Position numbers and translations under genes: made by a program
The notes under the pieces: model-generated
Seen by the model: only the letters and a program-made list of their open reading frames with translations
Database searches by the model: none
Told to the model about the DNA's origin: nothing
Assembly (NCBI RefSeq): GCF_001050155.1
Contig: NZ_LFVY01000009.1
Span: forward strand, 1 to 64,000
DNA from: Nitratireductor soli
GTDB lineage: Bacteria > Pseudomonadota > Alphaproteobacteria > Rhizobiales > Rhizobiaceae
Direction: 5' to 3'
Length of the DNA: 64,000 nucleotides
Shown: piece by piece, positions 23,864 through 64,000 of the stretch
Position numbering within the stretch: the first letter of the stretch is position 1
Layout: each line of letters opens with the position of its first letter

Positions 23864-24943
23864 ATGAAGATTCTGGCACTCTCAACTTCCGGTGAACGCT
23901 GCGGGATCGCTACCTACAATGCGGCTCTCGTCGAAGCGCTGCGCAATGACGGGATTTCGGTGGACGTCCACCCTATCGACACGGCAACGACCCGCGCGCT
24001 GTCGAAGCAGGAGATGCTGCACTATTTCGATCCGTTCCTGGCCCGGCTTGCCACCTATGACGCACTGATCATCCAGCATGAATATGGCCTGTTCGGCGGC
24101 AGATACTCGTCCGGCACGGCACAGAAAGTGTTTGCCCGCACGATGGCGGCGATCGCCGCCTCCGGCAAGCCGACGGCGATCGTCTTTCACTCGGAGCCAC
24201 GCATCTCGACACGCTTCCTCTCCAAGAAACGCGTCTACTGGCAGCGCATTCGCCACCTCATCAACTCCAATCCGCAGATTTTCGCCGTGGTCCATGGCGA
24301 GGAAGCGCAAAAGCAATACATCGATGCCGGGCTGGACCAGGATTCCCTGTGGGCGACCAGGCATCCGCTGCCGGCCATCCGCCACATCCCCAGAATCGGC
24401 GCCGACGGAAACGTCACGCTGACGATTTTCGGCTTCGTCGCCAAATACAAGGGATATCGCGAGGCGGTCGAAGCCCTCAGTTTCCTGCCGGAGCGGTTTC
24501 GGCTGCTTGTCGCCGGCGGGCCGCATCCGGGCAATGTCGAGGACGACACGTTCGACCGGCTGATAAAAGCCGGTCATCCGCGCGTCGAAATCACGGGCTG
24601 GCTCGACGAGCAGGACATTGCGGCCGTGATGGCGCGCACGGACATCGTCCTGGCGCCCTACCATCCCGACGGACCCGCCGGGTCCGGGGCCGTCACCTGG
24701 GGTATTTGCCATGGCCGCCCGGTGATTGCCTCGAAAACCGTCACCTTCAACGGAATCCAGGAGGAGGCACAGTGTTTCGCCATGGTGCCGCCGCGCGATC
24801 CGCAGGCATTGGCCGACACCATTTTGCAGCTGGCCGCCGATGACGCGGCCAGGGCAAGGATGGTAGAGTCCGGGTTCGACTACACAAGAAAATACAGCTG
24901 GGACGGAATGGCCCGGAGGCTGACGGAAAAGCTCACCGCCTAG
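23864..24943 (+). CDS. Glycosyltransferase, GT4-like, possibly C-terminally truncated by a repeat
   Basis: The 359-residue protein has a GT-B layout. The N-terminal domain starts MKILALSTSGERCGIATYN. The C-terminal domain has TLTIFGFVAKYKGYREAVEA and the nucleotide-sugar region ITGWLDEQDIAAVMARTDIV with APYHPDGPAGSGAVTWGI. It probably transfers a sugar from an NDP or GDP donor during surface polysaccharide synthesis. Its TAG stop codon (24941-24943) is part of the CTAGTGGT end of the repeat at 24940-25061, so the original stop has been replaced. The conserved domain looks complete. A methyltransferase follows. Confidence 0.85.
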   Translation: MKILALSTSGERCGIATYNAALVEALRNDGISVDVHPIDTATTRALSKQEMLHYFDPFLARLATYDALIIQHEYGLFGGRYSSGTAQKVFARTMAAIAASGKPTAIVFHSEPRISTRFLSKKRVYWQRIRHLINSNPQIFAVVHGEEAQKQYIDAGLDQDSLWATRHPLPAIRHIPRIGADGNVTLTIFGFVAKYKGYREAVEALSFLPERFRLLVAGGPHPGNVEDDTFDRLIKAGHPRVEITGWLDEQDIAAVMARTDIVLAPYHPDGPAGSGAVTWGICHGRPVIASKTVTFNGIQEEAQCFAMVPPRDPQALADTILQLAADDAARARMVESGFDYTRKYSWDGMARRLTEKLTA

Positions 24944-25061
24944 TGGTGCGATCCAGACAGATGGTACCCATCTGTCTGGACAAATCGCCCCACCAGATCA
25001 ATAGCTTGTGGGCTGACTTGTCGAAACGGATGGAGACCATCCGTTTCGGTCAGACCACTAG
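24940..25061. repeat. Full-length (122-bp) copy of the CTAGTGGT palindromic element
   Basis: The element has perfect 8-bp terminal inverted repeats, CTAGTGGT at 24940-24947 and ACCACTAG at 25054-25061. It carries two internal hairpins. One has the core cagatggtacccatctg near its left end; the other, aaacggatggagaccatccg, is near its right end. A less symmetric middle holds gcttgtgggctgacttgtcg. The four tandem units at 61647-62120 are the same element in inverse orientation. Its left end provides the stop codon of the glycosyltransferase gene. No open reading frame of note lies within it. Confidence 0.9.
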
Positions 25062-35117: not shown

Positions 35118-35169
35118 TTAGGGTGCGATCCCAACAGATGGGTTACCATCCGTTTCGGTCAGACCACTG
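35118..35169. repeat. Short, diverged copy of the CTAGTGGT palindromic element
   Basis: The segment has gtgcgatcccaacagatggg on the left and the conserved tail gtttcggtcagaccact on the right, as in the 1812-1864 copy. The middle of the full element is missing and the terminal repeat is partly changed (ttagggt / accactgg). It lies 29 bp before the comM start codon, in the 275-bp gap after gshB that otherwise shows only the gshB terminator and an AT-rich stretch. Confidence 0.75.
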
Positions 35170-35197
35170 GAGTTGAGACGCTGCCGGGGGGGATAAA

Positions 35198-60891: not shown

Positions 60892-61224
60892 TCAGACCTC
60901 TTCGCCGAAGCGCGCGGCGATCAGCGCGCCGAGCGCGTCGAGCAAAGCCTCGGCTTCAGGGCCCTCGGCCCTGACGCGAATGCTGCAGCCGGGGCTGGCG
61001 GCCAGCATCATCAGGCCCATGATGGATGTGCCGCCGACGGAGATGCCATCCTTCTCGACGGCCACTTCGGCATTGTGCGCATCGACGGTCTGGACGAACT
61101 TTGCCGAGGCGCGGGCGTGCAGACCGCGCTGGTTGACAATGGTGAACTCACGGTTGAGCGCCTTGGCCGCGGGTTTGGCCGGGCGCGGCTTCAAGCCTTG
61201 CTTTTCCGTGGAAGCCCCGCTCAT
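60892..61224 (-). CDS. ptsH: HPr-like phosphocarrier protein
   Basis: The 110-residue protein has an HPr domain after an unusual basic extension of about 23 residues (TEKQGLKPRPAKPAAKALNR). His36 in QRGLHARASAKF is the phosphorylation site used by EI. Ser67 in VGGTSIMGLM is the regulatory site targeted by HprK; the 31-residue spacing equals that of classical HPr. In alphaproteobacteria it serves regulation rather than sugar uptake. Its ATG overlaps the EIIA stop codon by 4 bp. Confidence 0.93.
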   Translation of the reverse strand: MSGASTEKQGLKPRPAKPAAKALNREFTIVNQRGLHARASAKFVQTVDAHNAEVAVEKDGISVGGTSIMGLMMLAASPGCSIRVRAEGPEAEALLDALGALIAARFGEEV

Positions 61225-61622
61225 TTGCCCGACAGCACCTGGCTGGCGACGTTGATGTATTTGCGGCCGGCGGTCTGCGCCTCCTCCAGCGCCTGCGCCA
61301 TATTGTCGGTGGCACGGGCGGAAGACAGTTTGATCAGCATCGGCAGGTTCATGCCGGCGATCACCTCGACGCGGCCGGCATCCATCACCGAGATGGCGAG
61401 GTTCGAGGGCGTGCCGCCGAACATGTCGGTCAGGATGATGACCCCAGCGCCGGTGTCGGCGCGCGCCACCGCATCGACAATGTCGCGGCGGCGCTGCTCC
61501 ATATCGTCCTCGGCGCCGATGGAAACCGTCTCCATATTCTCCTGATGGCCCACCACATGCTCCACGGCGTGGCGGAATTCCTCGGCCAGCTGGCCGTGCG
61601 TGACCATGACGAGCCCGATCAT
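61221..61622 (-). CDS. PTS EIIA component, mannose family
   Basis: The 133-residue protein starts MIGLVMVTHGQLAEEFRHAV, with the phosphorylated His9 in VTHG, and has IILTDMFGGTPSNLAISVMD, a mannose-family EIIA motif. No EIIB or EIIC permease gene is nearby, so it is probably a regulatory acceptor of phosphate from HPr. It is coupled to ptsH by a 4-bp overlap. Upstream, towards hprK, it is separated by an unusual 751-bp gap filled by repeats. Confidence 0.93.
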   Translation of the reverse strand: MIGLVMVTHGQLAEEFRHAVEHVVGHQENMETVSIGAEDDMEQRRRDIVDAVARADTGAGVIILTDMFGGTPSNLAISVMDAGRVEVIAGMNLPMLIKLSSARATDNMAQALEEAQTAGRKYINVASQVLSGK

Positions 61623-61646
61623 CGGCGCGTCTTCCGGCCGATGGTG

Positions 61647-62120
61647 CTGGTGGCCTGACCGAAACAGATGGTACCCATCTGCTTCGACAAGTCAGCCCAC
61701 AAGCTGTTGGTCTGGCGGGGCGATTTTTCCCAACAGATGGCACCATCTGTTGGGATCGCACCACTGGTGGCCTGGCCGAAACAGATGGTACCCATCTGTT
61801 TCGACAAGTCAGCCCACAAGCTGTTGGTCTGGTGGGGCGATTTTTCCCAACAGATGGCACCATCTGTTGGGATCGCACCACTGGTGGCCTGGCCGAAACA
61901 GATGGTACCCATCTGTTTCGACAAGTCAGCCCACAAGCTGTTGGTCTGGTGGGGCGATTTTTCCCAACAGATGGCACCATCTGTTGGGATCGCACCACTG
62001 GTGGCCTGGCCGAAACAGATGGTACCCATCTGTTTCGACAAGTCAGCCCACAAGCTGTTGGTCTGGTGGGGCGATTTTTCCCAACAGATGGCACCATCTG
62101 TTGGGATCGCACCACTGGTG
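61647..62120. repeat. Four tandem 117-bp units of the palindromic element
   Basis: The unit repeats at 117-bp spacing: gaaacagatggtacccatct begins at 61661 (with one change nearby), 61778, 61895 and 62012. Units 2-4 are essentially identical; unit 1 differs at a few bases (tgacc for tggcc, gcttcgac, tggcgggg). Each unit has two hairpins, cgaaacagatgg / ccatctgtttcg and cccaacagatgg / ccatctgttggg. A middle stretch tcagcccacaagctgttggt lies between them. The element matches the 122-bp copy at 24940-25061 in inverse orientation. Units join at ccactggtgg, the fused terminal repeats. Confidence 0.95.
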
Positions 62121-62314
62121 TCCGAAACTGTGCTCGAGGCTGTCACACTGTCACTCCATCCGAATGGCATCCGCGGCGACAGCCGCATATCCGGTTACCT
62201 GTTGTTCAAGCACGATCCCAACATGCGTTCCACGATGGTTCGCGCCCGGAGCGACGGTCTGTTCGACGAAACGCACAGACGACGCCCACGACTGCCTCAC
62301 GACAAGAGCGCTAT

Positions 62315-62341
62315 CTTGTCAACGCACAAGCCGTTGACAAG
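62315..62341. repeat. Perfect inverted repeat downstream of hprK
   Basis: CTTGTCAAC (62315-62323) and GTTGACAAG (62333-62341) form perfect 9-bp arms around a 9-nt spacer. It lies 33 bp past the hprK stop on the minus strand. It contains TTGACA-like hexamers on both strands, so it may be a promoter or operator for the EIIA-ptsH genes or a simple hairpin. Confidence 0.5.
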
Positions 62342-62373
62342 CCCAAAACTGCGGCGATTCGCCTAAATTGTGT

Positions 62374-62832
62374 TCAGGGGGTGGCCTGTATGCCGCCGAA
62401 AGGCGGCAAATCGAGACAGGCGGCGACCGCATGGACCGCCCCGCGCGCCGCCCTTGCGGGGAGATCGAGGCAGGGCAGGACAACGCCCTCGCAGGCGATC
62501 GTCCGGTCGTCATGAACGCGCGGCGCGTGTTCGGCATCGACCAGCCGAATCACCAGGTCGACCACTGCCGCCGGCAAATGGTCGATCGGCGCCGGGCCGA
62601 AGCCGCGCGCCTCGGCAAGCCCGCCGATCGTGGCGGGCGGGCGGGCCAGCAGGCGGCCATGATGCGCCGCGAGGAACAGCTGGTCGTCCGACACAAGCCG
62701 CGCAAACACGCCCCGCGCCGAAAAGGCGGCGATCAGTTCGAGCGCCAGCGTCGTCTTGCCGGCGCCGGAGGCTCCTTCGATCACAATGCCCCGGTCGGCG
62801 ATGACGAGGGCTGTCGCGTGGCGGTTCTGCAT
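62374..62832 (-). CDS. hprK: HPr kinase/phosphorylase, short alphaproteobacterial form
   Basis: The 152-residue protein contains only the C-terminal catalytic domain of HprK. Walker A is VIEGASGAGKTTLALELIA and the second conserved segment is LVSDDQLFLAAHHGRLLARP. The last part, LDLPARAARG, matches the usual ending. The N-terminal domain of Gram-positive HprK is absent, as in other alphaproteobacteria. It phosphorylates Ser67 of HPr. It lies 6 bp after chvG, so it is cotranscribed with the sensor kinase. Confidence 0.93.
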   Translation of the reverse strand: MQNRHATALVIADRGIVIEGASGAGKTTLALELIAAFSARGVFARLVSDDQLFLAAHHGRLLARPPATIGGLAEARGFGPAPIDHLPAAVVDLVIRLVDAEHAPRVHDDRTIACEGVVLPCLDLPARAARGAVHAVAACLDLPPFGGIQATP

Positions 62833-62838
62833 GGCCTG

Positions 62839-64000
62839 TCAGTCCTCGGCAGGCAAAGCGACGATGAAGCGGGCGCCCTTGATATCGCCAGATTTGGCAC
62901 CGACGATGTTTTCCGCCGTCAGCGTGCCGCCATGCGCCTCGACGATCTGCCGGCTGATCGACAGGCCAAGGCCGGAATTCTGGCCGAAAGCCTCGCCGGC
63001 CGGCCGGTCGGTGTAGAAGCGCTCGAAAATGCGGTCGATGTTCTCGACGCGGATGCCGGGGCCGTTGTCCTCCACCGTGATGATGACCCGCCGGTCGGCG
63101 CGCGACAGGGCAACGACGATGCGCCCGGTTCCTTCGGGCACGAACGAGCGGGCGTTCTCGATCAGATTGGTGATCACCTGACCGAGGCGCAGATCGTGCC
63201 CCTGGATGAAGAAGCCGCGCCCGCCGCCCTGGGCGGCACGGGTCTCGAACGTGATCTCGGCCGGTTTTTTCGTCGTGCCGGCCTCCACGGTCGCGCTGAT
63301 GAGGTCGCTGACGAATTTTTCCAGATTGATCCGCTCGGCATCCTCGCGGGACAATTCCGCGTCGAGACGCGAGGCGTCGGAAATGTCGCTGATCAGCCGG
63401 TCGAGGCGGCGCACGTCGTGCTGGATGATCTCCAGCAGGCGGTCGCGCGAGCGCTGATCCTTGGCCAATGGCAGTGTTTCGACCGCGCTGCCCAGCGAGG
63501 TCAGCGGGTTTTTCAGTTCATGCGCCACATCGGCGGCAAAGCTCTCGATGGCGTCGATGCGCGCATAGAGCGCCTTCGTCATGTCGCGCAGGGCCGCTGA
63601 AAGATTGCCGATCTCATCCTGGCGGTGCGAGAAATCTGGAATCTCCTCGCGCGAGCGCGCGCCACGGCGCACCCGGACGGCCGCCGCCGAAAGCCGCCGC
63701 AGCGGATTGGCGATGGTCGAGGCGAGCAGCAGGGAGAGGATCGCCGTCACCAGCGACGCCACGACGAAGACCCGCAGGATCGCCTTGCGCTCGGCAGCGA
63801 CGATCTTGTCAATGTCGCCGCCCTGCGTCGACAGGAGCAGCACGCCGAGCACGGCGCGGAAGCGCTGGATCGGCACGGCAACGGAAACGATCTGCTCGCC
63901 CTGCTCGCTGAGGCGAACCACTTTGGTGGTGGTGCCGGTCAGCGCGGTCATCACCTCGGGATAGGCGATACCGTTGCCGCCCGGCTGCTCGCGGTAGATC
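62839..64000 (-). CDS. chvG: Sensor histidine kinase ChvG/ExoS, C-terminal part
   Basis: The gene continues beyond the right edge; the frame is open to base 64000. The visible 387 residues contain the end of the periplasmic sensor domain, a membrane helix (FVVASLVTAILSLLLASTIA), HAMP, the H-box FAADVAHELKNPLTSLGSAV with the phospho-accepting His, and an ATPase domain with NLIENARSFVP and GLGLSISRQIVEAHGG. ChvG senses acidity or host conditions and phosphorylates ChvI; the periplasmic repressor is ExoR in rhizobia. hprK follows 6 bp downstream, as in related genomes. Confidence 0.93.
   Translation of the reverse strand, partial: IYREQPGGNGIAYPEVMTALTGTTTKVVRLSEQGEQIVSVAVPIQRFRAVLGVLLLSTQGGDIDKIVAAERKAILRVFVVASLVTAILSLLLASTIANPLRRLSAAAVRVRRGARSREEIPDFSHRQDEIGNLSAALRDMTKALYARIDAIESFAADVAHELKNPLTSLGSAVETLPLAKDQRSRDRLLEIIQHDVRRLDRLISDISDASRLDAELSREDAERINLEKFVSDLISATVEAGTTKKPAEITFETRAAQGGGRGFFIQGHDLRLGQVITNLIENARSFVPEGTGRIVVALSRADRRVIITVEDNGPGIRVENIDRIFERFYTDRPAGEAFGQNSGLGLSISRQIVEAHGGTLTAENIVGAKSGDIKGARFIVALPAED

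Follow-up and report, generated by a model that had tools for sequence, protein, structure and literature searches.

A tandem array of four palindromic units was identified in the gap between hprK and the EIIA-Man gene, at positions 61647–62120 of the window (the whole 64-kb stretch of DNA that was analysed). The units belong to a dispersed family of MITE-like, RIME-like intergenic palindromic elements, a kind that is already known. The account that we prefer, and regard as probable, is that an apparently non-autonomous member of this family was inserted in the leader of the EIIA and HPr genes and was amplified in place, with a small post-transcriptional effect. Our confidence in this account is tempered because some dispersed copies of the element are also identical to one another, and because one tandem junction elsewhere lacks TA.

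Structure and genomic setting of the array

The array was delimited by Tandem Repeats Finder (period 117 bp, 4.1 copies, 99% matches), by comparison of its units, and by a 468-bp local insertion relative to the congener G004; no strand was assigned to it as a whole. The units were arranged head-to-tail, 117 bp each, with starts at 61647, 61764, 61881 and 61998 and a closing CTGG at 62115–62118. Unit 1, proximal to EIIA (61647–61763, plus strand), differed at three bases from units 2–4 (61764–62114, plus strand), which were mutually identical. CTGG, rather than CTAG, was present at every junction and at both flanks. The predicted fold of a single unit was a pair of strong hairpins (-63.6 kcal/mol; z = -7.4, with none of 200 dinucleotide shuffles being as good). 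Repeat finding and folding therefore bore out what an earlier note on this DNA had described, that is, four 117-bp tandem units with two strong hairpins each, the last three identical. The same note held that all reading frames were open; this was true of five frames, while the sixth, on the minus strand, was stopped in every unit. Five or six frames were open in 28 of 3000 dinucleotide shuffles, a proportion that gives no clean estimate of chance because the palindromes couple the frames of both strands.

Pfam matches showed that the array was surrounded by minus-strand genes encoding a histidine kinase, HprK (62374–62832, PF07475), EIIA-Man (ManX; 61221–61622, PF03610), HPr (60892–61224, PF00381) and S-adenosylhomocysteine hydrolase. 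The operon just upstream of this group is presumably chvI/exoS. The gap between hprK and EIIA was 751 bp, compared with 88–389 bp in the other 82 measurable loci (of 90 examined, including the present one, seven had no hprK match); it was indeed unusually long, as had been noted. The gap was array-free in all nine congeners. Comparison with G004 supplied the empty site that had been proposed as a check: the local insertion was exactly 468 bp (4 × 117), leaving a single CCAG at the site, where G004 reads GCAG. The whole gap differed by 457 bp rather than 468 bp, because there were other small differences upstream.

The number of units was based on a draft assembly of 58 contigs, and it is conceivable, but unlikely, that four is a product of assembly and that the true array is shorter or longer. 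The draft state itself, the identity of units 2–4 across 351 bp and the termination of one contig (C56) within a copy of the element all point that way. Against this, the three private bases of unit 1 require at least two units, the array is not at the end of its 241-kb contig, and head-to-tail neighbours were seen at three other loci.

The dispersed family and the origin of tandem copies

A typical family member was 122 bp long, bounded by CTAG and composed of two hairpins; a second form was 53 bp with one hairpin. Sequence comparison located three further copies in the window, all on the minus strand: a full 122-bp copy (24940–25061) and a 53-bp one-hairpin copy (1812–1864), each with CTAG at both ends, and a degraded one-hairpin copy (about 35124–35172). 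These correspond to the one full and two shortened copies reported previously. In 23 of the 35 copies whose two ends were recognised, the net insertion was 118 bp, so that the 117-bp array unit is a variant; the length of 117 bp given in the earlier note describes the array, but not the typical element. In an alignment of 49 full and partial copies, conservation broke off abruptly at CTAG on either side, and CTAG was the commonest terminal four bases at both ends. Terminal inverted repeats were present but imperfect (CTAGTGGTCTGACC and CTAGTGGTGCGATCC; the element end pattern was CTAGTGGTSYGAYC). The four terminal bases were often unequal between the two ends of one copy, and a target duplication, of either TA or CTAG, is therefore unproved. 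Alignments at two other copies in the window were too diverged to show one; the array site keeps one CCAG in comparison with G004.

The 53-bp form lacked one hairpin, and the size difference of 69 bp equalled the spacing of the two similar hairpins; most simply, the short form would be a deletion between them. The consensus fold of 34 distinct full copies consisted of two hairpins, in which 1349 of 1391 pair cells were standard and 33 differed on both sides, three pairs accounting for most of these. Such conservation of pairing, without a slid or shuffled control, does not prove a role as RNA. Rfam produced no match at the gathering threshold in ten loci and in three loci; in the window stretch it returned seven rows far below the gathering score, from eukaryotic miRNA and snoRNA families. 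At one locus (L241, G000:C3:158122–158174) one end region was a near-perfect 53-bp palindrome built from a pair of 3' ends, after which came the remainder of a full element.

The source genome (G000) contained at least 75 matches to the unit, including at least 39 full or near-full copies dispersed outside the four-unit array, a lower bound since 40 of 85 candidates were scored; most of the remaining rows were the reverse reading of the same palindromes. Separate searches for the ends found 78 left and 60 right ends. Of the left ends, 54 were paired, giving 37 full copies (four being the array units), 16 copies of about 53 bp and one spurious long pair; 24 left and seven right ends were unpaired. 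A larger autonomous element was sought among these, but the 20 of the 31 unpaired ends that were inspected by eye were truncated or diverged copies.

Within the genus, four of ten genomes were matched (own included), there being many matches in the source genome and G007, five in G004 and one in G001, mostly partial. With the best two candidates scored per genome and the source genome included, at least 9 of 297 genomes in the family and at least 2 of 397 in the order were matched; two genomes, of two other genera, had 42 (G286) and 19 (G146) matches. The family consensus had no match at E 0.01 among 72,556 plasmid records, nor did the family in the phage collection at E 0.01 or in 80 named hprK loci. 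This patchy presence suits a mobile element that spreads and is then lost.

Among the 35 copies with both ends, 34 were intergenic and one overlapped a predicted gene by at least 30 bp (genes being predicted with our own simple caller, and overlaps below 30 bp tolerated). The intergenic copies lay between codirectional (25), divergent (7) or convergent (2) genes. A predicted gene boundary coincided with the terminal four bases in seven of the 35, and in nine an open frame of at least 100 codons, some of which are perhaps not genes, ended on the TAG of the terminal four bases; such positions would be expected if the element often targeted CTAG at TAG stop codons. Nearly the same flank, TTTGGCYGGGGCAGGACA or its complement, accompanied three copies (L016, L026 and L163); it resembles a second dispersed repeat, with the element inserted next to it or inside it. 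Insertion into hairpin loops was considered and rejected: the flank complementarity of 35 copies averaged 4.66, compared with 4.39 for re-paired flanks (maximum of 500 shuffles, 5.23).

At 122 or 53 bp, the element is too short to encode a transposase, and its transposition would call for an enzyme supplied from elsewhere. Six transposase loci in G000 (two PF13358, four PF01609) had no matching pair of ends, and one of them (L143) had a single unpaired end-like match with two mismatches. The partner may have been lost, may be of another family or may reside in another genome. The element is apparently non-autonomous, in support of its earlier description as a dispersed, non-autonomous palindrome. 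At L207 (about 1093–1927), inverted ends starting CTAGGCTCAGGAC surrounded a PF01609 transposase match, and a similar CTAGGGTCAGGACC followed the PF13358 match at L143 (about 1940); these are possibly the ends of another CTAG-ended mobile family in the same genome. The window also contained a different inverted repeat at 809–945, with 44-nt arms that were 91% complementary and 49 nt apart.

CTAG was observed 16 times in the window, where about 208 occurrences were expected from base composition, and four of the 16 were ends of the palindromic element. Since CTAG is rare and the element ends carry it, an element favouring CTAG would often meet its own ends. Head-to-tail neighbours occurred at three other loci. 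In G000 (C7) a 53-bp copy stood next to a 122-bp one, in G286 (C8) a full and a truncated copy had one CTAG in common, and in G007 (C2) the ends of two full copies abutted without TA. The last junction is not predicted by simple insertion into CTAG, and the CTGG junctions mean that the CTAG rule is not seen at the array site.

Pairwise identity among dispersed copies within the source genome had a median of 89%, and the copy closest to the array unit was 95% identical to it; one copy in G007 reached 97%. The contrast between this median and the complete identity of units 2–4 supports the recent local amplification that had been suggested. However, three pairs of dispersed copies were 97–100% identical, with L018 and L019 at 100%, so identity alone is no proof of local duplication. 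Local duplication is still the simplest explanation for three neighbouring units that are identical and all of the uncommon 117-bp type. The sequence of events would begin with insertion of a palindromic element into the 5' leader of the EIIA and HPr genes. If CTAG-like sites, very scarce in this genome, are the preferred targets of the element, the ends of resident copies would make up a sizeable share of those available, and a new insertion at a resident element's own end would create the first tandem pair. Replication slippage or unequal recombination could then have added identical units, up to the present four. Insertion at its own end, followed by local duplication, would most simply be the route by which the tandem arose.

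The leader of the EIIA and HPr genes

A conserved motif, CTTGNN-N17-CAAGAT, was situated between the array and hprK (62313–62341, minus strand). It occurred between hprK and EIIA in all ten genomes of the genus, the source genome among them, and 67 of the 80 named loci had it as well. Of 1600 mononucleotide shuffles of upstream regions none contained it, and on the opposite strand it appeared in 6 of 80. In the named loci (L052–L141) it most often began 99–114 nt before EIIA, and in the nine congeners 214–262 nt before it. Here, as in most of those congeners, it was also an inverted repeat (CTTGTCAACG/CGTTGACAAG). The motif looks like a promoter, although a scan of 61200–62900 for E. coli-type sigma-70 promoters found no promoter-like site and did not recognise the motif. 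Published work is in keeping with this setting: it states that manX-hpr has ChvI bound upstream of it in Sinorhizobium meliloti (PMC3687685), that hprK and the next gene are co-transcribed in Brucella melitensis (PMC2937029), and that hprK and ptsM lie within one 16-gene operon in a study of Brucella abortus (PMC9491525). The array is downstream of the motif, that is, within the EIIA leader; it therefore lengthens that leader and does not part hprK from the next promoter-like site.

The leader also contained a short predicted ORF (61621–62146, minus strand), which the earlier note missed. It has a GTG start with a Shine-Dalgarno-like GGATGGAG upstream, and its TGA overlaps the EIIA ATG. The ORF was open in all ten genus genomes (own included), each with GTG and GGATGGAG or a near variant. 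It was 15 codons long in five genomes and 19 in four. In the source genome the array leaves that frame open and introduces no stop, so that the ORF grows from 19 to 175 codons. The middle of the peptide was variable across the genus when compared by eye, so that the frame and both ends appear to be the conserved part, and the ORF is presumed to be translated. No counterpart was seen by eye in the 80 named loci. The 175-residue product scored as Mobilization_B in Pfam (28.7 bits, cut-off 27), but none of the individual segments reached the cut-off, and the match was taken as a repeat artefact.

A typical copy, with its net 118 bp, would shift the leader frame, in contrast to the array unit at 117. 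Net length was divisible by three in 7 of 35 dispersed full copies, and the ORF would stay open with 6 of the 35 in the same orientation and with two if flipped. Frame retention by the array is therefore roughly a one-in-six event, which is compatible with selection but is no evidence for it, and could be due to chance.

Under the preferred reading, of an element inserted in the leader and amplified there, the array would add 468 nt of hairpins to the leader and the short ORF would stay open. Ribosomes from the leader GTG could traverse the array, melt the hairpins and finish on the EIIA start codon. The effect of the array would then most likely be small and post-transcriptional, and the array itself is probably a harmless stowaway.

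A rather improbable alternative makes the array a regulatory device, in which hairpins or length set the level of EIIA and HPr through RNA processing, stabilisation or the rate of leader translation, and copy number serves as a slow contingency switch. The strength of the hairpins agrees with this, as do the position of the array between the conserved promoter-like site and the EIIA start, and the unit identity, which suggests a recent change in number. Yet the gap is array-free in the nine congeners, none of the 80 named loci has the element, no intrinsic-terminator-like site was found in the array, and there is no sign here of selection on copy number. It is still more doubtful that the element was co-opted as the body of the leader ORF; in that case the unit would have been kept for being a multiple of three and open in frame, translation of the 156-codon repeat would melt the hairpins and feed the EIIA start, and copy number would make the leader of EIIA and HPr tunable.

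Least credible is the idea, from the earlier note, that the array uncouples transcription of EIIA and HPr from hprK. The array is highly structured and lies between both genes, the co-transcription noted above for B. melitensis (PMC2937029) indicates that a coupling may exist to be lost, and the sigma-70 scan gave no promoter between hprK and EIIA; the idea is nonetheless weakened because the promoter-like site, conserved in the genus and in most named loci, precedes the array, and the array has no terminator-like site.

Significance and comparison with known systems

No published description of these CTAG-bounded palindromes, from a family of the Rhizobiales, was found in the open-licence full text that was searched, including with strings from the element sequence. 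The results offer a simple and testable reason for tandem arrays, in that a rare target would be supplied by the element itself. As the array occupies the leader of a PTS regulatory gene pair, and relatives are array-free, its effect on expression is directly measurable; this is a clean test case for how palindromic repeats affect a neighbouring gene. Two further features emerge from the analysis: a conserved promoter-like site ahead of EIIA-Man and, at the level of the genus, a short leader ORF.

The family resembles MITEs in having many dispersed copies with defined ends (at least 39, plus the four units), terminal inverted repeats, albeit imperfect, and a size too small for a transposase. 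By their description in PMC2229807, the Correia/NEMIS, RUP and ERIC MITEs are likewise short, with inverted ends and terminal TA; the present family differs in that no autonomous partner was found at the six transposase loci and target duplication is unproved. REP sequences, according to PMC3733652, are palindromes of 20–40 bp with a GTAG or CGTC tag at one end, and differ from the family described here, which is 122 or 53 bp and most often ends in CTAG on either side. Bru-RS1 and Bru-RS2 of Brucella, a related genus, are similar by description, being dispersed stem-loop elements of 103–105 bp (PMC2267715). The family profile had no match in two hprK loci of Brucella tritici and Ochrobactrum (L072, L085). 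Rickettsia palindromic elements, as portrayed in PMC2229807 and PMC10969869, include a palindrome in frame within an ORF, as at the array. Those elements are frequently inserted in frame in protein genes, unlike the present family, in which 1 of 35 copies overlapped a predicted gene by at least 30 bp and in-frame retention was seen once, in the short leader ORF. The likeness to RIME (Rhizobium-specific intergenic mosaic elements), again by description, lies in an intergenic element of the Rhizobiales. The RIME of Osteras et al. (1995) are reportedly about 108 bp long with two palindromes. Two palindromes in an intergenic element of the Rhizobiales, which are their defining trait, are also what the array family presents, with 34 of 35 copies intergenic.
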